Assembly: GCA_018971105.1 (NCBI GenBank)
Contig: JAGWVB010000013.1
Location: 1-34,993 of the forward strand
Source: Burkholderiales bacterium
GTDB taxonomy: Bacteria > Pseudomonadota > Gammaproteobacteria > Burkholderiales > Burkholderiaceae_C
Reading direction: 5' to 3'
DNA: 34,993 nucleotides
Shown piece after piece: positions 10,004 to 20,733 of this stretch. Positions within the stretch are counted from its first letter, which is position 1; every line of letters starts with the position of its first letter. A model generated the notes under the pieces. It searched no databases. It saw only the letters and a list, made by a program, of their open reading frames with translations, and had not been told where the DNA came from. The position numbers and the translations under genes are program-made.

Positions 10004-10079
10004 TCCCCGATAGCTCAGTCGGTAGAGCGCCGGACTGTTAATCCGTAGGTCCCTGGTTCGAGCCCAGGTCGGGGAGCCA
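10004..10079 (+). tRNA. tRNA-Asn (GTT anticodon), CCA encoded
   Basis: TCCCCGATAGCTCAGTCGGTAGAGCGCCGGACTGTTAATCCGTAGGTCCCTGGTTCGAGCCCAGGTCGGGGAGCCA; cloverleaf arms readable. Confidence 0.96.
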
Positions 10080-10100
10080 AGAAAACTCGATATGAAACAA

Positions 10101-10137
10101 GGACTTAGGCGCTTCGGCTCCTAGGTCCTTTTTCTTT
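10101..10137 (+). terminator. Rho-independent terminator after tRNA-Asn
   Basis: GGACTTAGG-cgcttcggct-CCTAGGTCC followed by TTTTT. Confidence 0.85.
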
Positions 10138-10385
10138 GCTCGGCCTGCTGGTGGCTCCATGTAGCCACCATGTAGCGAGCGGTACAGGGTTTCGGCCCTT
10201 CCGGGCCATCCCGGCGTCGGCCTGCGTCGGCCTGCATTGCATGGGGCGTTTCGGCGCCGGGTCGCCCTCGCCTATGGGGTGTCGGCCCGGGGACCCTTGC
10301 ATGGGATTGTTTTTCCGGTGGGCGTCGCCGTCGCTCGCGCGGGGCGGCCACACATGAACACTTTTGTACTCGGCCGGCGGCGCGG

Positions 10386-10610
10386 TCAGGGTGCCGGCGC
10401 TGGTGCCTGGGGCGGCGCGCATTCGCTCTCGTCCAACAGAAAGCCGTTGAAGTCGACGCGATGCGCTGGCACTACCTCAACGGTCTCGGCGATGGGGGCG
10501 CCGCCCAGCATCTGGATGGCCTGCGCAGACCCCTTCCGCGGAAACTGGTACGGCGCACCGGTCCCATCGCGCCGGAGCGTGAAGGCACAGACGAGGACGG
10601 GCGTTGTCAC
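10386..10610 (-). CDS. hypothetical protein (island)
   Basis: ORF with coherent protein-like composition: MTTPVLVCAFTLRRDGTGAPYQFPRKGSAQAIQMLGG... Confidence 0.5.
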   Translation of the reverse strand: MTTPVLVCAFTLRRDGTGAPYQFPRKGSAQAIQMLGGAPIAETVEVVPAHRVDFNGFLLDESECAPPQAPAPAP

Positions 10611-10834
10611 GGTTCGGAGTTTGCCACTCTCATCCGTGGTAGAGAAAAGCTTTGCGTCGAGGGCGGCACTCGCACGCTCTTGCTAGCTGCCTCCTGCCCT
10701 GTCCCTGTTCTCAGACCGGAGCGTCGCCCTCGCGCAGGCGGTTTGACACCATGACTTTTCATAACAGGCTCGGCCCCTGCGGCGCGGCCCCGATGCCAAC
10801 ATTTGCCAACCTCTACAGTTCGCAAACTGCGCGG

Positions 10835-11146
10835 CTACCGGCGCCAGAGCCGGGCCGTCAGCACCTCTACGGCGATGCGCTCGGCGTCGGCTCGAATGCG
10901 CGCTTCCTGGGCCAGCCGCAGCGCGGTAGCCTGCTCGGCGGGAGACAAGGCGCACAGCGCCTGCTCGGCGTCGAACAGCCGTTGCGCAACACTGCGCACG
11001 GCCTGCACCTGCGCCGATAGGCGTTCGGATACCGTTGCTTTGCTCACGCCGAATTCACGCGCAAGGTCGGCGGCACGCTCACCAGCCAGCAGCCGCGCCG
11101 TGAGTGCCTGCCAGGCGCGCGGCGACAGCTTCGAGGGCCTACCCAT
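10835..11146 (-). CDS. helix-turn-helix DNA-binding protein
   Basis: MGRPSKLSPRAWQALTARLLAGERAADLAREFGVSKATVSERL; overlaps upstream ORF end. Confidence 0.7.
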   Translation of the reverse strand: MGRPSKLSPRAWQALTARLLAGERAADLAREFGVSKATVSERLSAQVQAVRSVAQRLFDAEQALCALSPAEQATALRLAQEARIRADAERIAVEVLTARLWRR

Positions 11147-11387
11147 GCGGCAACGCCTCGGCAGCGGCCAGCGGGTCGCGCAGGGCGCACTGTGCCAGGA
11201 CGGCGAGCCCACCGCGTCCGTCTCCGTCCGTCTCCGTCCGTATCCTGTCCGTCTCGGAAACTTGGATACGGTCGAAGGACGGGGGGACTTCAGTCCCCGT
11301 CCGTCCGTACCGCAGGCTGTTTTCCTTAAGGCGGTACGGACGAGCCGAGACGGACGGAATCGCCCTTCTCCCTGGTGCAGTGCTCAT
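11139..11387 (-). CDS. small hypothetical protein; ORF contains the iteron-like array
   Basis: ATG at 11387 overlaps the primase stop (ATGA); its 3' end overlaps the HTH gene start. Confidence 0.45.
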   Translation of the reverse strand: MSTAPGRRAIPSVSARPYRLKENSLRYGRTGTEVPPSFDRIQVSETDRIRTETDGDGRGGLAVLAQCALRDPLAAAEALPHG

Positions 11388-11425
11388 GGCTTCCCCGGCT
11401 CTGGCGCCGTTTCGCCGATACGGAC
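11216..11425. repeat. iteron-like cluster (GTCCGT-core repeats, both orientations) with nested inverted repeats
   Basis: GTCCGT at 11216, 11226, 11236, 11247, 11299, 11303 (+) and ACGGAC at 11336, 11350, 11420; IRs GTCCGTCTCGG(11247-11257)/CCGAGACGGAC(11345-11355) and GTCCGTACCGC(11303-11313)/GCGGTACGGAC(11331-11341). Confidence 0.85.
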
Positions 11426-13558
11426 GGCTGCGGGCGATTTGCGCCAGGTGGGCGGCACTTTCAGCTTATGCGGCGGCAACCCCTCTCCCCGTCTCGCGGC
11501 CTCGCGCTCGTCAGGCGTCAAGCTCACCAGAAAGGCGGCGCGCTTGGGGTTCGTCCTCTCTTTCGGCGGCACGGGCACTTCGATAACCCACTGCTCGGCA
11601 ATGAGGCTTTCCAGACAGGATGCAACGTCTGCGCGGTTGCGCTTGGCCCTGCCTTTGACGCCCTCACGGTTCAACGGGCAGCCCGTCACCCATTCAGTCT
11701 CGATGATGTCGCGCACCTCGTCACGCATGGCTGCGGCTTCAGCCTTGCGGGCGGCCTCCTTTGCTTGCTCCTGGGCTTCCTTGCGGGACTGCTCGGGCGG
11801 TATTGCGACTCCCCAGCGCAGCGTGACTCGCTCAGGGTTGCCGAATTCATCGCGCGCCTCGACGGTCGCCCAATCTCCCCGAATCAGCAGCTCGGGCCAC
11901 TGCGCCTCGAAGCGGGTTTTGCCCCGCACCAGATAGCGCGACTCGTCAGCCTCTTTGACCAAGTAGAGGACTTGGTTTGCATCGGCCTCGAATGCCGAGC
12001 CACCCCGCAGAGACAGCCCGGCAGCATCGGCGCGGCTCATGTTGGCTTTGGCGACATGGCCCACCAGCCAGACGGGCAGGCTGTCGAATTCTTGCTTCAG
12101 CAGGGCCACGATGGCGCTCGCCTCTGAGTTGCTGTTTTCCTCGTCCATCGCCAGGACGGCGGCCTTTGTGTCGAACACCACCAGGGGCAGCACCTCCACG
12201 CCGTCAACGGTGCGGGTGAAGCGTTCGCGGTAGGTCTCGCCTACCTCGGCGACTCGCGCGGGGTCCATGCGCTTCGCCTCGACCATGTGCAGCCGCTCTT
12301 GCACTGTCGGCAGGCCCAGCCCAAGCCCGCCAAACCCCACGATGCCGGCCACGATGCGGCGGGCCTGCTCGATGTCCTCCACGATGTAGACCACATGCCG
12401 CCAATGGCGCGGCGCCAGCTCATCGCCTGGGGCGTGTAGACCGGCGGCCACCATCGCCAGCGGCAGGAGCGCGGTTGTCTTGCCGACGCCGTGCGAGCCG
12501 GCCACTATGACAAGCCCATGCCCGATGAAGCCCGGAATCACCCAGCGCGGGGCGATGGGGCTTCCATCGAGTTCAACGAACTTCGCCAGGGGATGGACCG
12601 GCACGCTTGGACGCTCGGGGGCGCTCGATGACATCAGCAATTCCTCCAGCGCATCAAACCCCTCGGCCTGGGCGTAGTCGTTGGCGTCGAAGTTCTTCGG
12701 GCTGCCCTCGGGCATCGTCACCACCTCGGCGCCGACATCGCGGGCGATTGCCTCGGCGTCAGCTTCCTTGCCGGCGTCGGGCACCAGCACCAGGCGGGCC
12801 GATGCGTCGCGCTGGCGCAGTTCGGCGGCCACAGCACGCATTCGGCCGGCGCCGAAGCAAACCGCCGAGCGAAACCCCACGGCCCGGCGGCAGGCCCACG
12901 CCTGCCCGATGCCCTCGACGATGAAGACCGTATCGCCCGGCTCTACCTCCGCCGGGGAATCGCCGACGATGAACACGCCGGCCATCGCCGCACCGGGCAG
13001 GTTCAACTTCTTGCCATTGCCGGGGGGTGGGATGAATTGCAACGAGACAGGCTCTCCCCCTTCCAACGGCAGCACTGGCACCACCAGCCAGCCGGCCACG
13101 GGCTCACCAGCGATGCGCAGCGGGTCACCGACCGGCACCACGCGCAGCCCATCGGGGCGGCCTGCCTTCGCAGCGATGTAGGGATGCGTCTCGGAAGCCG
13201 GATTGCAGCGGCCCCAAACCTCGGCGGCACTCATGCCAGGGGCTGGGCGACGGCGGGGCTCTGCGGGCTTCCTGCGGGCCTGCGCGGGGCTTTGGCGGCG
13301 CCGCCCATAGCCCCCATGCTCGGCCGCCATCTTGTACAGCGTACCGGGACCTACGCCCTTGCCGGGCGTGAAGCTGCGCCAGGTGTCGCGGGCGGCGCGT
13401 TCATCGTAGTTGCCGCCCTGCGCGCTCCACTCGTTGAAGTCGTCAAACTCGAGCCCGGCAGCCTGGGCGGCCATGCCAGCGCGTACCCATTCATCGCGCG
13501 GCAAGTCGGGCGGGATGGCGCGCAGCGCTTCACGGGCGCGGTTTAGGTCAGCGAGCAT
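11384..13558 (-). CDS. primase/helicase-like protein (PriCT-2-like + Toprim-like + RepA-type AAA ATPase)
   Basis: N-term REALRAIPPDLPRDEWVRAGMAAQAAG...TWRSF; VFIVEGIGQAWACR (Toprim-like); VIVAGSHGVGKTTALLPLAMVAAGL (Walker A); VFDTKA, VWLVGHVAKA. Confidence 0.85.
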   Translation of the reverse strand: MLADLNRAREALRAIPPDLPRDEWVRAGMAAQAAGLEFDDFNEWSAQGGNYDERAARDTWRSFTPGKGVGPGTLYKMAAEHGGYGRRRQSPAQARRKPAEPRRRPAPGMSAAEVWGRCNPASETHPYIAAKAGRPDGLRVVPVGDPLRIAGEPVAGWLVVPVLPLEGGEPVSLQFIPPPGNGKKLNLPGAAMAGVFIVGDSPAEVEPGDTVFIVEGIGQAWACRRAVGFRSAVCFGAGRMRAVAAELRQRDASARLVLVPDAGKEADAEAIARDVGAEVVTMPEGSPKNFDANDYAQAEGFDALEELLMSSSAPERPSVPVHPLAKFVELDGSPIAPRWVIPGFIGHGLVIVAGSHGVGKTTALLPLAMVAAGLHAPGDELAPRHWRHVVYIVEDIEQARRIVAGIVGFGGLGLGLPTVQERLHMVEAKRMDPARVAEVGETYRERFTRTVDGVEVLPLVVFDTKAAVLAMDEENSNSEASAIVALLKQEFDSLPVWLVGHVAKANMSRADAAGLSLRGGSAFEADANQVLYLVKEADESRYLVRGKTRFEAQWPELLIRGDWATVEARDEFGNPERVTLRWGVAIPPEQSRKEAQEQAKEAARKAEAAAMRDEVRDIIETEWVTGCPLNREGVKGRAKRNRADVASCLESLIAEQWVIEVPVPPKERTNPKRAAFLVSLTPDEREAARRGEGLPPHKLKVPPTWRKSPAAVRIGETAPEPGKP

Positions 13559-13661
13559 TGACGCACCTCCACAGCATCGCCGCGACCGAGACGGCAGCCG
13601 GAAACAGCGCACATAGGCCCGGCCCGCAGGCGGCCAAAAGGACGAACAGGCGCGCGGTCAT
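13548..13661 (-). CDS. 37-aa hydrophobic microprotein between SSB-like and primase genes
   Basis: MTARLFVLLAACGPGLCALFPAAVSVAAMLWRCVNAR*; ATG overlaps SSB stop (ATGA) and its end overlaps primase start. Confidence 0.55.
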   Translation of the reverse strand: MTARLFVLLAACGPGLCALFPAAVSVAAMLWRCVNAR

Positions 13662-14080
13662 GCCCTGCCTCCGTTCAGCCATGCATCGTCATCGGCTCCG
13701 AAGTCGTCGCCGGCCGGTTGCTGGCGCCGCGCGCTTTCGGGCTGGCGCTCGCTGGCCTGCGCGGCATCGCGCTTCTTTTTCAGCCCGTACTGCGTCATCA
13801 CTTGCGCGGCCACAAGGTCCACGCTCGGGCGGGCGTTGCCCTCGCGGTCGGTCCAGGCGCCAGGCTTGAGCGTGCCGGCCAGCGCGACGGAATCGCCCGC
13901 GTCCAGCGCCAGCAGGGCGGCGCATGCAGACTCGCTGAAAGCGATTACGTTGACAAACAGGGAATCCGCATCGCCGGCAGCCGCGCGGACTTTGGCAACG
14001 ATGAACGAGCGGCCGGCCTTGCTGGTGCGTTCCTCGGCGCGCTGGTGCAACTTGCCGAGCACGAGGGCTTCGATGCTCAT
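13658..14080 (-). CDS. single-stranded DNA-binding protein-like
   Basis: MSIEALVLGKLHQRAEERTSKAGRSFIVAKVRA...FVNVIAFSESACAALLALDAGDSVALAGTLKPGAWTDREGNARPSVDLVAAQV; acidic tail. Confidence 0.75.
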   Translation of the reverse strand: MSIEALVLGKLHQRAEERTSKAGRSFIVAKVRAAAGDADSLFVNVIAFSESACAALLALDAGDSVALAGTLKPGAWTDREGNARPSVDLVAAQVMTQYGLKKKRDAAQASERQPESARRQQPAGDDFGADDDAWLNGGRA

Positions 14081-14430
14081 AGCCGGCCCCCCGTCATCGC
14101 GGCCAGGGCCTGCGCGATGTACTTGCCGGGCAGGTGATACAGCGCAATCACGCGGTCCGGGCAATCGTCGGTCGGCGCCGGAATCTCGATGGTCTCGATG
14201 GGCCAGCCGAGCGAGCGCAGGACGAATATCGAGGCGCCCAGGCGCCAACTCTGCGTGCGGCTCTCAAAATCGGGATGATCAATCTTGCGACCGTCCATCA
14301 GCATGCCGAGCGCGCGGTCGGGGAGAGTTCCACGGGTCGGCCAGGTCGGGGAGAATGGCGGCGGCGGGAGAAACGACATTTGTTCGCCCGAGGCCCCGGC
14401 AGCCGGCAAGTTGTTCGGGGCCTTCTTCAT
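14077..14430 (-). CDS. hypothetical protein (island operon)
   Basis: MKKAPNNLPAAGASGEQMSFLPPPPFSPTWPTRGTLPDRALGML...; ATGA overlap with SSB-like gene. Confidence 0.65.
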   Translation of the reverse strand: MKKAPNNLPAAGASGEQMSFLPPPPFSPTWPTRGTLPDRALGMLMDGRKIDHPDFESRTQSWRLGASIFVLRSLGWPIETIEIPAPTDDCPDRVIALYHLPGKYIAQALAAMTGGRL

Positions 14431-14666
14431 TGCGTCACCCCGAGGAGACTGCGCAAATCGCCGGTTTTCCAGGCAAGGCGCCCGAACAGGCGAACCGGAC
14501 GGATGGGGCCATCCTCGTGACAGGCCCACGCGCGGAGTGTCTGCGGCTTACGGTTGAGGTAGTACGCGGCGGCGGCGGTCGTCACGGTCGGGCTCGTGAC
14601 AGCCTCCAGCGGCGGGTGTTTCTCCCAGTGCGCCAGCGTGGCGGCGTTGGGGATTGAGGTTTGCAT
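14427..14666 (-). CDS. small HTH (MerR/excisionase-like) DNA-binding protein
   Basis: AAYYLNRKPQTLRAWACHEDGPIRPVRLFGRLAWKTGDLRSLL (excisionase/MerR-like helix and wing). Confidence 0.7.
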   Translation of the reverse strand: MQTSIPNAATLAHWEKHPPLEAVTSPTVTTAAAAYYLNRKPQTLRAWACHEDGPIRPVRLFGRLAWKTGDLRSLLGVTQ

Positions 14667-14718
14667 TTGGAACCATCCTTCCGCGCATTTGCGCTGTGTT
14701 GATGGTTCGTAAATGTTG

Positions 14719-14780
14719 ATTCCCGGAATTCCCGGGCCGGCTTCCTCGTTCCCGCCGGGAACCGCGGGAACTGCGGGAAT
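14719..14780. promoter_or_regulatory. candidate operator/iteron cluster: six CGGGAAY heptamers, three per strand
   Basis: ATTCCCG 14719-14725 and 14728-14734, GTTCCCG 14748-14754, CGGGAAC 14756-14762 and 14765-14771, CGGGAAT 14774-14780; includes palindrome GTTCCCGCCGGGAAC. Confidence 0.75.
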
Positions 14781-14792
14781 TCAGGAGGGCAA

Positions 14793-15602
14793 TTACCTCG
14801 CGGCGTCCTGCAGCTCTGCCCAGTGGTTTTGAATTGTCTTCAGCGTCAGCGGTTTACCAATCTCGCGCACCCACAAGCTCCCTCGGTGGTGCCCTATGCC
14901 CTTGTCAAATGGGCTACTGTCGCTCCCGGCGTCCTCATGCAGCGCATGATTCAACTCAACCGCCGTAGCGAACCTACCCGCCCGCACCCGCCCCGCCATA
15001 TAGTCCCATGCGACATCGCGCCACGTCTTGCGCGGCTGCCTCGCTGGCACCTGCGCGGCTTCGTTCTCTGAATCGTCGCCGGCAGCGCCGGCATCGGCCA
15101 GCGGCACATTGTCGGCCGGCGCAGGCTCGGCGGCCGTTGCAGGCGTCGGCGCATCGGCGACCGGCGCTGGCGCGGTAGCCGTTGTCGGCGGTGTTGCAGA
15201 TGCTGATACGGCGGATGAGGGCAGCAGGCCTAGATATCGGGCAAATACTTCCAATCCGTTGACATAGCCTGTCAAAGCACGCGCCCGCTCCAGCGCACTC
15301 GCCCCCGGCGGTATCGACGGCAGCACCAGCGCGGCGAACTCAATCGGGTCGATGAATCGCCCTTGCGGGTTAGGCTCGCATTCCAGCCCGTAGCGCGGAA
15401 TACGGCCCGCAGCTATCAGCGAATCAGTCTTCCGGCGAAACGCGTCTTCCGTGCGATGCCGCAGGCACTCAAGCCCGCTGAGATTGCGCCGGTCTATGCC
15501 GAGGGCGCGCAGAATGTATTGCGCTTCGCTCTCGGTGGAGTCCTGCCATTGCTCGGCCGCGAGTAGCGCAGGCGCGTCGGCCAAGACACAGTATGAATTC
15601 AA
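14793..15602 (-). CDS. hypothetical protein (island; start uncertain, TTG proposed)
   Basis: Long ORF with coherent composition: ESEAQYILRALGIDRRNLSGLECLRHRTEDAFRRKTDSLIAAGRIPRYGLE...KTIQNHWAELQDAAR*; Ala/Pro-rich linker. Confidence 0.6.
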   Translation of the reverse strand: MNSYCVLADAPALLAAEQWQDSTESEAQYILRALGIDRRNLSGLECLRHRTEDAFRRKTDSLIAAGRIPRYGLECEPNPQGRFIDPIEFAALVLPSIPPGASALERARALTGYVNGLEVFARYLGLLPSSAVSASATPPTTATAPAPVADAPTPATAAEPAPADNVPLADAGAAGDDSENEAAQVPARQPRKTWRDVAWDYMAGRVRAGRFATAVELNHALHEDAGSDSSPFDKGIGHHRGSLWVREIGKPLTLKTIQNHWAELQDAAR

Positions 15603-15708
15603 GTTGCATCCCCCGATGCGCCCGGTACGGGGTGCCACCAGCAGCCGCGCCGGGGGTCGCGGTCTTCGGCCCGATTTGCGGTCGGGTCTAGCTGGCGGCG
15701 AACTGAGT

Positions 15709-16431
15709 CTAAGCGCCAGCAACCACGCGCAGCCCGGCGGGCTCGGCCTTCGGGTCGAACTTGACGCCGGCCTGCTCAAGAATCCACGCCTCGATGCGCT
15801 CGTGATGAACGCGCAGCAGGTCGAGCGGCCGGCGTTTGTAGTGCTTCTCTGCGGTCGCGCTGGGCTTGTGTCCCTGAATCTGCGCTACCACCCCGGCCGG
15901 CACTTCGAGCCATTCCGTCAGGCTGGCGAAGCTGCGCCGCAACCCGTGCAGCGTCAGCCCTTGCAGTCCAACGGCAGCGCATGCCTTGCGGTGCGCAATG
16001 TCGGGGTCCATCAGGCGCCCGGACTCGCTCGCCTGGGCGGCGTCGCCGACCGGGGCGGCGGTTCCCCGGGCTTCGTGATACCGCTCGCGGCGGGCGATGT
16101 GTATCGGGTTCAGGCTGACGGCTCGGGCGCTCGAAAACACCCACTGATTGCGGCGCGGCAGGGCCGACAGCAGGCTCCAGACATAGGGGGTCAGCGGAAT
16201 CTGGCGCTCGCCTTCCACCTTGTCGCGGATGGTGATGCCGCTCCATTGCGTGTCCAGGTCATCCCAGCGCAGGGCGATGACTTCGCCAGGGCGGGCGCCC
16301 GTCATCAGCAGCGTTTGCAGGTAGGCTGCGGTTACGGCGTTCGGCATGGCACGCACGGCACCGAACCACGCCTTCAGTTGCCCGCGCTCTAGAACATCGT
16401 CTTTGGGCTTCGCCTTGCCGGCTGCCTCGCG
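15709..16431 (-). pseudogene. tyrosine recombinase/integrase, N-terminus removed at IS3-family junction
   Basis: TGARPGEVIALRWDDLD, LTLHGLRRSFASL, IQGHKPSATAEKHYKRR catalytic motifs; ORF loses homology at 16432 (IS end). Confidence 0.88.
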
Positions 16432-16487
16432 TGAGCTGCCCGCCGTTTTTCGTCTTCCAAGGGTCGATTGATAGCATCGAGACCTGA

Positions 16488-17678
<1,191 letters not shown>

Positions 17679-17717
17679 GCGCGGCCCGTTGGAAGGCGAA
17701 ATTCGACGGGCAACTCA

Positions 17718-17960
17718 CAATCTCAAGACGCCACGGCGAGACGCTTACGATGCTCAGACTGGCATGGTGGTGGAAGCCTCTCCAGCCGCGGCCTTCGTAG
17801 TGCCCGAGGCCAAAATCCTGCTTTTAATCCTGGTAGTCGCGCTTGATGCGTCAGCGCTAATGGGTTGCCGCGACCAGTTCATTCAGCGACGTTTCCTCAG
17901 GGAGCGTATGCAGAACGTATTTGCTTGGCTCTGCCTGACTCTGAGGCCGCGCCCGGCCGT
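17718..17960 (-). pseudogene. DDE transposase remnant (IS701/IS4-like), several stops
   Basis: Minus translation KYVLHTLPEETSLNELVAATH*R*RIKRDYQD*KQDFGLGHYEGRGWRGFHHHASLSI matches the ERDYQELKQELGLGHYEGRGWRGFHHHA signature, with nonsense codons. Confidence 0.8.
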
Positions 17961-18085
17961 CGGCGCCGGGGTCTGCACAGTGACGAGTTCAAGGCAGACG
18001 CTGCCGCCGCCGCTGTGCAGCCTGGCGCGTCCATAGCAGCCCCAGCCGACGGACCTCCCGGCATCGCCGCGTAAACCCCAGGTTG

Positions 18086-18101
18086 TGTGAAAGCGCTTTC
18101 A
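18086..18101. promoter_or_regulatory. perfect 16-bp palindrome, LacI-family-type operator
   Basis: GTGAAAGCGCTTTCAC. Confidence 0.6.
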
Positions 18102-18357
18102 CGCGCAGACTGCGTTCGGGGCTGAATCAGACAGACCCTGCCAGGATCCGTGTCGCATGACTCCGCCACGGGCTGACCTGGCTCGTCGCTCGCTCGGGCT
18201 GACCCCGCTATTGCAGCCTTTCGTCTGATGCCCGGCACCGAGCCCACGAGGGACGGCGTACTTCTCCACCGCGACCCCTTCGATCGCAGCTTCTCAGGGC
18301 TGCGGCCGGTGGGTCATTCGCCCGCGCAAATCCAGGCGGGGCCCCACTAGCAAGAAC

Positions 18358-20733
18358 GTGATGAAACTCCATACTCCCCCATTTCCCGTCCTCCCGGCCT
18401 GCCTGCTGGCAGCCAGCATCGCCCTGTCCGGCTGCGGCGGCGGTTCGAGCACGCCAGCCGCGACGGCGCAGACCATCACCTTCACTTCACCGGGCAATCA
18501 GACCTTCGGCGCAGCCGCCGCGACCCTCGCCGCGACGGCGAGCTCGGGCCTGGGCGTGACGTTCACGTCCAGTACCCCGGCGGTGTGCACGGTGAGCGGC
18601 AACGCGCTCAGCCTGGTCGCTGCCGGCACTTGCACGGTCTCGGCCGAGCAGGCGGGCGACGCCAGCTACGCGGCGGCGCCGACGCAGGCCGTGACGTTCA
18701 CGGTGGCCCAGGGTCCCCAGACCATCAGCTTCACCGGCCCGGGCAACCAGACGCTCGGTGCGATGCCGCCCCCGCTGGTCGCGACCGCCTCGTCCGGCCT
18801 GCCGCCGACGATTGCCTCGCAGACCGCGTCGGTTTGCACCACGAGCGGGACGACGCTGACGCTGGTCGCGGCCGGCACCTGCACGCTCGACGCCAGTCAG
18901 CCGGGCAACGCCAATTACGCCATGGCCACCGATGTCGTGGTCAGCTTCGCCGTCGCGGCGGGCTCGTCGGTTGCGCCGGCAACGGCCGCGCCGGCGCCAG
19001 CGCACGCCGTCGTGACCTCCTTGCTGACGACCTCGGCCAAGGACGTCTCGGGAACCAATTTCTTTCCGAATTGGGGCCAGGCGACGCAGTACACGAACAC
19101 CGTGATCGGTGGCGTGGAAACGGCTGAATATTCCGCGTTGAATTACGAGGGAATCCAGCTGGCAGCGACCAGCGACCTTTCCGCCGAAGGCTATGTGCAC
19201 TTCGACGTCTGGACGCCGAACGTGACGAGCCTGGGCTTCGACATCATCTCCGCGGGACCGGTCCAGGCGCAGGTCGCGAGCACCTTGACCGCAGGCAGCT
19301 GGAACTCGATCGACATTCCGCTCAGTGCGTTCTCGGGGGTCGACCTGACCCATGTGATCCAACTCAGCTTCACGGGTCTGACGCCGGCGGCGGGGGGCAC
19401 GATCTATGTGCAGAACCTGTACTTCTGGGGGACCGGCGCCGTGGCTTCCACCGCTCCCGCCGCGCCGGTCATCGGCACGGCGACCGCAGGCAATGCCCAG
19501 GCCACGGTCAGCTTCACCGCACCTGCCAGCAACGGCGGCAGTCCCATCACGGGCTACACCGTGATCTCCAACCCAGCCGGTGGCGCGGATGGCGCGGCCG
19601 GCACGACGGCGTTGACCCACACCGTCACCGGCCTGGCCAACGGCGTCAGCTACACCTTCACCGTCATCGCAACGAACTCGGTCGGCAACAGCCCGGCGTC
19701 CGGCGTCTCGAACGCGGTGACACCGGCCTTCGTCCCCGGACTGGTGACTTCGACCGCCTCCAGCTGGAGCCTGGGCGGTGCCGCCGACTTCAACGGCGTC
19801 ACCTCGTCGCTGGTCACGAACCCGCCCGCCGGCGGCAGCGCGACCAATGCGGCCATGGCCGTCATTCCGGTCGGTGCGCAATACGACGGCACGACCTTCC
19901 TGACGCTCGTGAACCAGGAGTTCTGCACCACCTTGCAGCCGACTATCAGCTTGGAGGTCAACGCACCCGCGTCCGGACTCATCATCGACCTGAAGCTCGA
20001 GCAAGACGGCAATCCGGCCCTGAACATCGAGATGAACAAGCTGTCCGTGGCGGGATGGCACACCTACAGCTTCAACTGCCTGACGGATTCCGGATCGGCC
20101 ACGACGCCGCCCACGGCGCCTTACGTGGAGTCGACCGTCTACAACAAGATGTCGGTGTTGTTCGACTTTCTCCCCCAAAACCCGGGGCAGACCTGGTACT
20201 GGGATAGTCTGAGCTATGTTCCGACGGCCGCGGTCACTTATGTCCCGCCTGCGGCCTTTGCCGCGCCGACGACCGCCGCAGCAGCGCCCGCCCACGGCGT
20301 CGTGCTGTCGTTGCTGACGTCTTCGGCCAGCGATGTCGCCGGAACCAACTTCTTTCCCAACTGGGGGCAGGCGACGCAATATGCGGCGCTGACCGTGGCT
20401 GGCGTGGAGACGGTGGAGTATTCGACGCTGAACTACGAAGGCATCGACCTGGCGGCACCGGTGAACGTCGGGGCGGCTACACACGTGCACTTTGACGTCT
20501 GGAGCAATGTCAGCAGCCTCGGATTCGACCTGATCAATTCAGCTGCAGTCACCGGGGCGGGAGCCGTGCAGTTCCAGGTGAATTCGCCTTTGACGACGGG
20601 ATGGAATTCGGTCGACATTCCGCTCAGTTCCTTCACCGGGGTGGACCTGACGAAGATCGACCAGCTCAGCTTCACGGGCGTGAACCCCGCCAGCGGCGGC
20701 ACGGTGTATATCCAGAACCTTTATTTCTGGTAA
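18358..20733 (+). CDS. multidomain lipoprotein: two Ig-like repeats, FN3, and carbohydrate-binding-like domains
   Basis: Lipobox LSGCGGGSS; two ~79-aa QTI.FT.PGNQT... repeats; FN3 (APVIGTATAGNAQATVSFTAPASNGGSPITGYTV); two ~140-aa domains GTNFFPNWGQATQY...VHFDVW...SLGFD...W.S(I/V)DIPLS.F.GVDLT...YIQNLYFW. Confidence 0.8.
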   Translation: MMKLHTPPFPVLPACLLAASIALSGCGGGSSTPAATAQTITFTSPGNQTFGAAAATLAATASSGLGVTFTSSTPAVCTVSGNALSLVAAGTCTVSAEQAGDASYAAAPTQAVTFTVAQGPQTISFTGPGNQTLGAMPPPLVATASSGLPPTIASQTASVCTTSGTTLTLVAAGTCTLDASQPGNANYAMATDVVVSFAVAAGSSVAPATAAPAPAHAVVTSLLTTSAKDVSGTNFFPNWGQATQYTNTVIGGVETAEYSALNYEGIQLAATSDLSAEGYVHFDVWTPNVTSLGFDIISAGPVQAQVASTLTAGSWNSIDIPLSAFSGVDLTHVIQLSFTGLTPAAGGTIYVQNLYFWGTGAVASTAPAAPVIGTATAGNAQATVSFTAPASNGGSPITGYTVISNPAGGADGAAGTTALTHTVTGLANGVSYTFTVIATNSVGNSPASGVSNAVTPAFVPGLVTSTASSWSLGGAADFNGVTSSLVTNPPAGGSATNAAMAVIPVGAQYDGTTFLTLVNQEFCTTLQPTISLEVNAPASGLIIDLKLEQDGNPALNIEMNKLSVAGWHTYSFNCLTDSGSATTPPTAPYVESTVYNKMSVLFDFLPQNPGQTWYWDSLSYVPTAAVTYVPPAAFAAPTTAAAAPAHGVVLSLLTSSASDVAGTNFFPNWGQATQYAALTVAGVETVEYSTLNYEGIDLAAPVNVGAATHVHFDVWSNVSSLGFDLINSAAVTGAGAVQFQVNSPLTTGWNSVDIPLSSFTGVDLTKIDQLSFTGVNPASGGTVYIQNLYFW

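Follow-up and report, generated by a model that had tools for sequence, protein, structure and literature searches.

What kind of mobile element lies beside the tRNA-Asn gene of a 34,993-nucleotide contig from a Burkholderiales bacterium, and how would such an element travel between cells? The window analyzed here is this entire contig (JAGWVB010000013.1, contig C80), one of 499 contigs in an assembly of 4.82 Mb (GCA_018971105.1). An earlier note, made from the sequence alone, had described a compact integrative element with a coupled replication operon, plasmid-like or a satellite, and had matched it to no named family. We consider it fairly likely that the element is the remnant of a phage satellite-like island, of the kind represented by the phage-inducible chromosomal islands (PICIs) and the phage-inducible chromosomal minimalist islands (PICMIs) of Vibrionaceae (PMC10803314), and that its intact type integrates into tRNA genes, probably replicates itself and would be packaged by a helper. 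The best reading is that it probably belongs to a new Burkholderiales lineage of such phage satellites, which carries a satellite-specific form of the phage terminase small subunit (TerS) that is limited to the N-terminal half and is called half-TerS below.

The genes of the element form a single block on the minus strand, which runs from an insertion sequence (IS) toward the tRNA gene through the C-terminal half of an integrase, a 269-aa protein, an AlpA-like helix-turn-helix (HTH) protein, a 117-aa protein, a single-stranded DNA-binding protein (SSB), a 37-aa open reading frame (ORF), a primase-helicase, an 82-aa ORF and a last HTH protein, which is half-TerS. From the AlpA-like gene to this last gene, all six junctions overlap, four of them as ATGA and the others by 11 and 8 nt, compared with 7 of 19 same-strand neighbors in the host part of the window. 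The operon that the earlier note had drawn on the minus strand from 14666 to 10835, with overlaps at nearly every junction, was thus found with all of its named features.

The copy in the window is an IS-damaged remnant. Its tyrosine integrase (15709-16431, minus strand; Phage_integrase, 1.9e-13) consists of the C-terminal half only, while intact homologues have about 440-470 aa, and the gene is cut at 16432 by an IS3-family element (16432-17717, plus strand; transpos_IS3, 1.8e-110) that has inverted ends and around which no target duplication was seen. When the assembly was searched with a full-length relative, the query matched only the window integrase and a different integrase on contig C172, and the N-terminal half was not found in the rest of the assembly. 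On the near side, tRNA-Asn(GTT) was located by ARAGORN (10004-10079, plus strand), and its 3′ part is the presumed attachment (att) site. A search of the assembly allowing up to 3 mismatches gave no second copy of this 3′ end; the element has thus lost its far end. Because the integrase is cut by the IS and the second att copy is gone, the window copy is considered a remnant, and the loss of the integrase N-terminus and of one att site would leave it unable to integrate or excise alone. Of what the earlier note had said about the ends, the tRNA gene was confirmed and the integrase reduced to a half; the picture of a complete element had to be given up.

The integration site itself was seen in both states. 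In G052, a close relative with 91% identity over the flank, the tRNA-Asn site is empty and the element is wholly absent; homology passes through the tRNA gene and ends at window position 10109. Since the flank that follows the site in G052 is found on contig C46 in the window's genome, the right side of the window has been rearranged. In genome G733, the same tRNA-Asn gene, beside the same TonB-receptor gene, is filled by a complete 7511-bp element (L126) that has a repeat of the tRNA 3′ part at each end. To the right of the IS, positions 17718-18360 of the window were unmatched in the rest of the assembly and in G052.

Intact relatives were examined in a survey of 401 genomes sampled from the family, in which a primase match was counted if at least 500 of 653 profile positions were covered, and genes were called by a simple codon-usage script, with which small genes may be missed and starts may be wrong. 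Full-length primase relatives were present in 16 genomes. Comamonadaceae and Aquabacterium are among the relatives found through the primase. Ten complete elements are bounded by paired direct repeats of roughly 40-80 bp and range from 6142 to 11352 bp (L025, 6142; L023, 7426; L028, 11352; L113, 8241; L114, 9627; L115, 7260; L118, 8361; L122, 8138; L123, 7439; L126, 7511). They occupy genes for tRNA-Thr (4), -His (2), -Met (2), -Phe (1) and -Asn (1), and their att repeats are exact over 42-54 bp, those of L126 being made up of 38+24+15 bp with single mismatches. By tblastn, the integrase, the AlpA-like gene, the primase and exactly one of two small-protein types (wH-A, the type of the window, or the alternative wH-B) were present in 11 of 11 elements in constant order and on a constant strand. 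SSB was found in three of these elements, a VRR-NUC nuclease in five and TerS homologues in four.

Pfam searches on 91 proteins of the ten intact elements returned only integrase, primase, Toprim, VRR-NUC, SSB, toxin-antitoxin and similar families; capsid, portal and large terminase subunit (TerL) families were found neither there nor among the 25 of 44 PHROG families listed, which do include terminase small subunit. The P4-like genes psu, delta and sid were likewise without a matching family for the window genes or among the families listed for the relatives, and no relaxase was seen in the full Pfam tally of the ten relatives or for the window genes. That the element lacks transfer and virion genes, as had been noted, is upheld for relaxase, capsid, portal and TerL, with the reservation that its last HTH protein is homologous to the N-terminal half of a phage TerS. 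An integrase and replication genes unaccompanied by structural genes would also suit an integrative mobilizable element that moves by way of an oriT and a conjugative helper, independently of phages. We regard this as very improbable, given the absence of relaxase among the families found, the TerS homologues that 4 of 11 elements carry at the tRNA end, and an AlpA-primase layout as in phage satellites. It is also improbable that we are looking at the leftover early region of an ordinary prophage that has shed its structural genes and in which half-TerS is a broken terminase gene. The truncation of the window copy by an IS and the matches of its genes to phage families would fit such a leftover, but ten att-bounded relatives, alike in size and gene order and found at five kinds of tRNA gene, contain none of the structural families listed, and dN/dS (the ratio of nonsynonymous to synonymous substitution rates) is about 0.2-0.5 between relatives for the primase N-terminal half and the 117-aa gene, well below 1 (the comparison of the integrase C-terminal part, which was out of frame, was excluded).

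The last gene of the operon gave a further argument against decay. Half-TerS (10835-11146, minus strand) is a 103-aa HTH protein that is 40-50% identical over ~84 residues to the N-terminal half of two prophage proteins, L111 (183 aa) and L112 (197 aa); the similarity reaches past the HTH, and both prophage genes lie directly upstream of TerL. A single-sequence AlphaFold model (pLDDT 89) contains the HTH and two long helices, and a fold search with it gave generic HTH matches only, none below E 0.001. In a profile search, the TerS N-terminal domain occurred in two size classes, a long one of 180-197 aa and a short one of exactly 103 aa, with a 133-aa outlier (L148). The long class adjoins TerL in L111, L112, L138/L143, L144, L146 and L147, and L145 (181 aa) has no TerL within the 3.3 kb examined. 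The short class comprises four loci, namely the window, L132 (G052, contig C1), L142 (G021, contig C216) and L141 (G021, contig C313); its members have a common C-terminus that differs from that of the long class, and no TerL was found beside them in the stretches examined.

The surroundings of the four short forms have little in common. They lie on three unrelated replication backbones and one remnant: the PriCT_2 primase of the window, an initiator protein with a DnaB-like helicase in L132, which also has tail genes and an integrase beside icd, a DUF927 helicase with a Toprim_3 primase in L142, and, in L141, the same tRNA-Asn site as in the window, with a toxin-antitoxin pair. DNA similarity among the window, L142 and L141 begins at the half-TerS start codon and stops shortly past the stop codon, and dN/dS for half-TerS is 0.09 between the window and L142 and 0.13 between the window and L141, indicating purifying selection. 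As judged from its constant 103 aa, low dN/dS, similarity confined to the gene and unrelated neighbors, half-TerS is a maintained gene and not a broken one, and it moves between unrelated backbones; the same constancy in 4/4 loci speaks against the leftover-prophage explanation introduced above. On this evidence, readings as a prophage remnant, an integrative mobilizable or conjugative element, or a plasmid are disfavored. The integrative element of the earlier note, targeted to a tRNA gene and equipped with a replication operon, is borne out by the ten relatives, the filled site of L126 and the empty site of G052; a satellite fits better than the plasmid-like alternative because of the AlpA-like gene, the lack of structural and relaxase genes, and the TerS homologues at the tRNA end. 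Different TerS homologues occupy the same place at the tRNA end in L113 (phrog_83, 1.2e-8; phrog_641, 3.2e-8), L118 (phrog_641, 1.3e-8) and L122 (phrog_641, 1.6e-5). In L132, the 8.8-22.0 kb stretch of G052 contig C1 between icd and a cold-shock gene encodes a tail hub-like protein, an 804-aa tape measure and half-TerS; no capsid or large terminase was seen in it, which points to a satellite carrying tail-length genes.

How might such an element be propagated? The intact type is integrated at the 3′ end of a tRNA gene by its own tyrosine integrase, as the paired repeats of ten relatives, one in the same site, show. Excision would probably involve the AlpA-like protein, and replication would probably rely on the primase-helicase, on SSB and on an iteron origin just downstream, to go by the gene families and repeats. 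The DNA would then probably be packaged in helper phage particles. Half-TerS, which has the DNA-binding part and lacks the C-terminal half, may pair with the helper's TerS and redirect the terminase to satellite DNA. The precedent is the small Rpp protein of E. coli PICIs, which has a DNA-binding domain like that of TerS; by binding the helper TerS, it keeps phage DNA from being recognized and promotes the packaging of island DNA (PMC6739421). Both are small HTH-plus-helix proteins of satellites that are expected to act on TerS; Rpp is reported to be structurally similar to lambda TerS (PMC6739421), whereas half-TerS is clearly homologous, in sequence, to another TerS family. By this analogy, we tentatively suggest that half-TerS redirects the helper's terminase to satellite DNA, a possibility that falls somewhat short of being probable. 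With the same reserve, it may be viewed as a free-standing N-terminal TerS domain, a selected packaging module that is exchanged among satellites with unrelated replication systems and redirects or blocks the helper terminase through mixed complexes with full-length TerS. Its presence on unrelated islands suggests a shared way of stealing phage particles.

A satellite could also use half-TerS for defense or regulation, either poisoning the helper's packaging with it as a dominant-negative TerS or repressing satellite genes. The missing C-terminal half, the overlap coupling to the replication operon and the generic nature of HTH folds are in keeping with such a role, which nevertheless appears less likely, since half-TerS is common to unrelated satellite backbones, where it sits at the packaging end. 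Rpp does both, blocking as well as redirecting (PMC6739421), so half-TerS need not be confined to blocking.

Of the named systems, PICMIs come close in layout. Their prototype of ~6 kb has int, alpA, one small gene and a primase, no capsid genes and direct-repeat flanks (PMC10803314), and int, alpA and primase are co-localized here as well, with int truncated in the window and its AlpA match weak when taken alone. Differences are that PICMIs were described from Vibrionaceae and the present elements are from Burkholderiales, that PICMIs lie beside fis and not in tRNA genes, that their primases are of the DUF3987/DUF5906 type and not PriCT_2-Toprim-AAA_25 (PMC10803314), and that some of the Burkholderiales elements have TerS homologues. 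Gram-negative PICIs such as EcCICFT073 share int, alpA, a fused pri-rep, sometimes terS near the end, and the absence of lytic genes (PMC6092414). The int-alpA-pri-rep order without lytic or structural genes is found in the present elements, and a specific att site with paired repeats in the ten relatives, of which the window retains one side. Candidates for a terS or other packaging-redirecting gene are the half-TerS homologue of the window and the TerS homologues that occur in 4 of 11 elements. In contrast to those PICIs, no helper is known here, the primase is of another family and TerS is of half length (PMC6092414); TerS of Staphylococcus aureus pathogenicity islands is also a satellite-borne small subunit (PMC6092414); here, only the N-terminal half of a TerS is represented. 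Contrary to the earlier note, then, layout and size do match named kinds of element, with differences in primase family, att site and TerS form. Because the PICMI primase family and fis site are lacking and helper dependence is only putative, the elements were not filed as members of either group. A CFT073 stretch meant as a PICI yardstick turned out to contain a different satellite-like element, one with a capsid gene, and was left out of the comparison.

Several observations weigh against a phage satellite. The AlpA assignment of the window's own gene (14427-14666, minus strand) is weak (phrog_66 excisionase, E=0.006), with homologues at the equivalent place in 10/10 intact elements. TerS homologues were not recognized in 7 of 11 elements, and a packaging role therefore does not extend to the backbone as a whole. 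A peptide-pattern scan of IMG/VR, which reaches close relatives only, gave no relatives of the primase or the 269-aa protein, and the window's assembly yielded no phrog_2-type TerL. Helper, excision, replication and packaging have not been observed.

Phage satellites have been characterized in few bacterial groups, and no account of Burkholderiales satellites of this kind was found in the open-access papers searched. Layout and size are already known from PICMIs and PICIs; what these data suggest as new is a lineage of satellites in Burkholderiales whose half-TerS is exchangeable. If the proposed role is true, half-TerS would be a second, sequence-traceable answer to the problem addressed by Rpp, that of a terminase-less satellite taking over the packaging motor of its helper. 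Because full-length homologues of half-TerS can be recognized in prophages, it is possible to name candidate helpers and partners for binding; the family also provides a small, att-bounded set of elements whose intact copies could serve in experiments.

The primase-helicase (11384-13558, minus strand) combines PriCT_2 (Pfam, 1.5e-17), a Toprim-like domain and a RepA-like AAA_25 domain (1.5e-22), as assigned by Pfam, PHROG and alignment, and matched no solved structure by sequence. Across the family, its N-terminal half, with PriCT_2 and the Toprim-like domain, shows 48-70% identity, but the C-terminal helicase half of the window protein shares only 17-25% with those of the other nine aligned proteins; against L025 (8108-10093), the two halves are 70% and 24% identical. 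This disparity suggests that the helicase was exchanged as a module within one gene family. Just downstream of the primase lies an iteron-like cluster (11215-11427), where a stretch of 204 bp (11224-11427) contains every one of the six ACGGACGG copies of the 35-kb window; 7 of 10 copies of ACGGACG are in the spacer, and no same-sequence counterpart of the cluster was found in relatives. By analogy with PICIs, in which the origin comes after the replication gene (PMC6092414), we infer a candidate replication origin at this cluster.

The smaller genes of the block, all on the minus strand, are less informative. The SSB-like protein (13658-14080) matched Pfam SSB (1.9e-7) and phrog_44 (6.7e-8). 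The conserved 117-aa protein of the wH-A family (14077-14430), with homologues at the equivalent place in other elements, is possibly a winged-helix protein; its model, of low confidence, shows helices followed by a hairpin. According to the ORF list and junctions, the 37-aa ORF (13548-13661) is coupled through overlaps, and the 82-aa ORF (11139-11387), of doubtful coding status and without a family match in library scans, links primase and half-TerS in the same way. The 269-aa protein (14793-15602), a variable gene between int and alpA, has relatives in 7 of 10 intact elements, no family match, and none in phages, plasmids or PADLOC. Between half-TerS and the tRNA gene, a conserved segment (10380-10628) that may be a short ORF or a DNA site is 77% identical to L132 8811-9059, which sits on another satellite-like element, and weaker copies stand alone in L133 and L134.

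Larger or differently organized carriers of related primases were also encountered. L116 (G707, contig C49) has a primase of the window family together with SSB, a phrog_2276 tape measure protein (7.7e-46) and a phrog_196 baseplate hub (1.1e-47), on a contig too short to separate a prophage from a tail-bearing satellite. In G092, a larger element at a tRNA-Ser site (L026), with the same primase family, encodes a Bbp16-type capsid cement homologue (12993-13454; Pfam, 2.5e-11) and SSB. Two small circular Proteus mirabilis / E. coli records, L034 (NZ_CP104987, 8955 bp) and L035 (CP077066, 17382 bp), have a PriCT-2 primase and no annotated integrase; L034 also encodes a tape measure protein (phrog_28, 3.8e-105), and L035 resembles a head-to-tail dimer of a similar unit.

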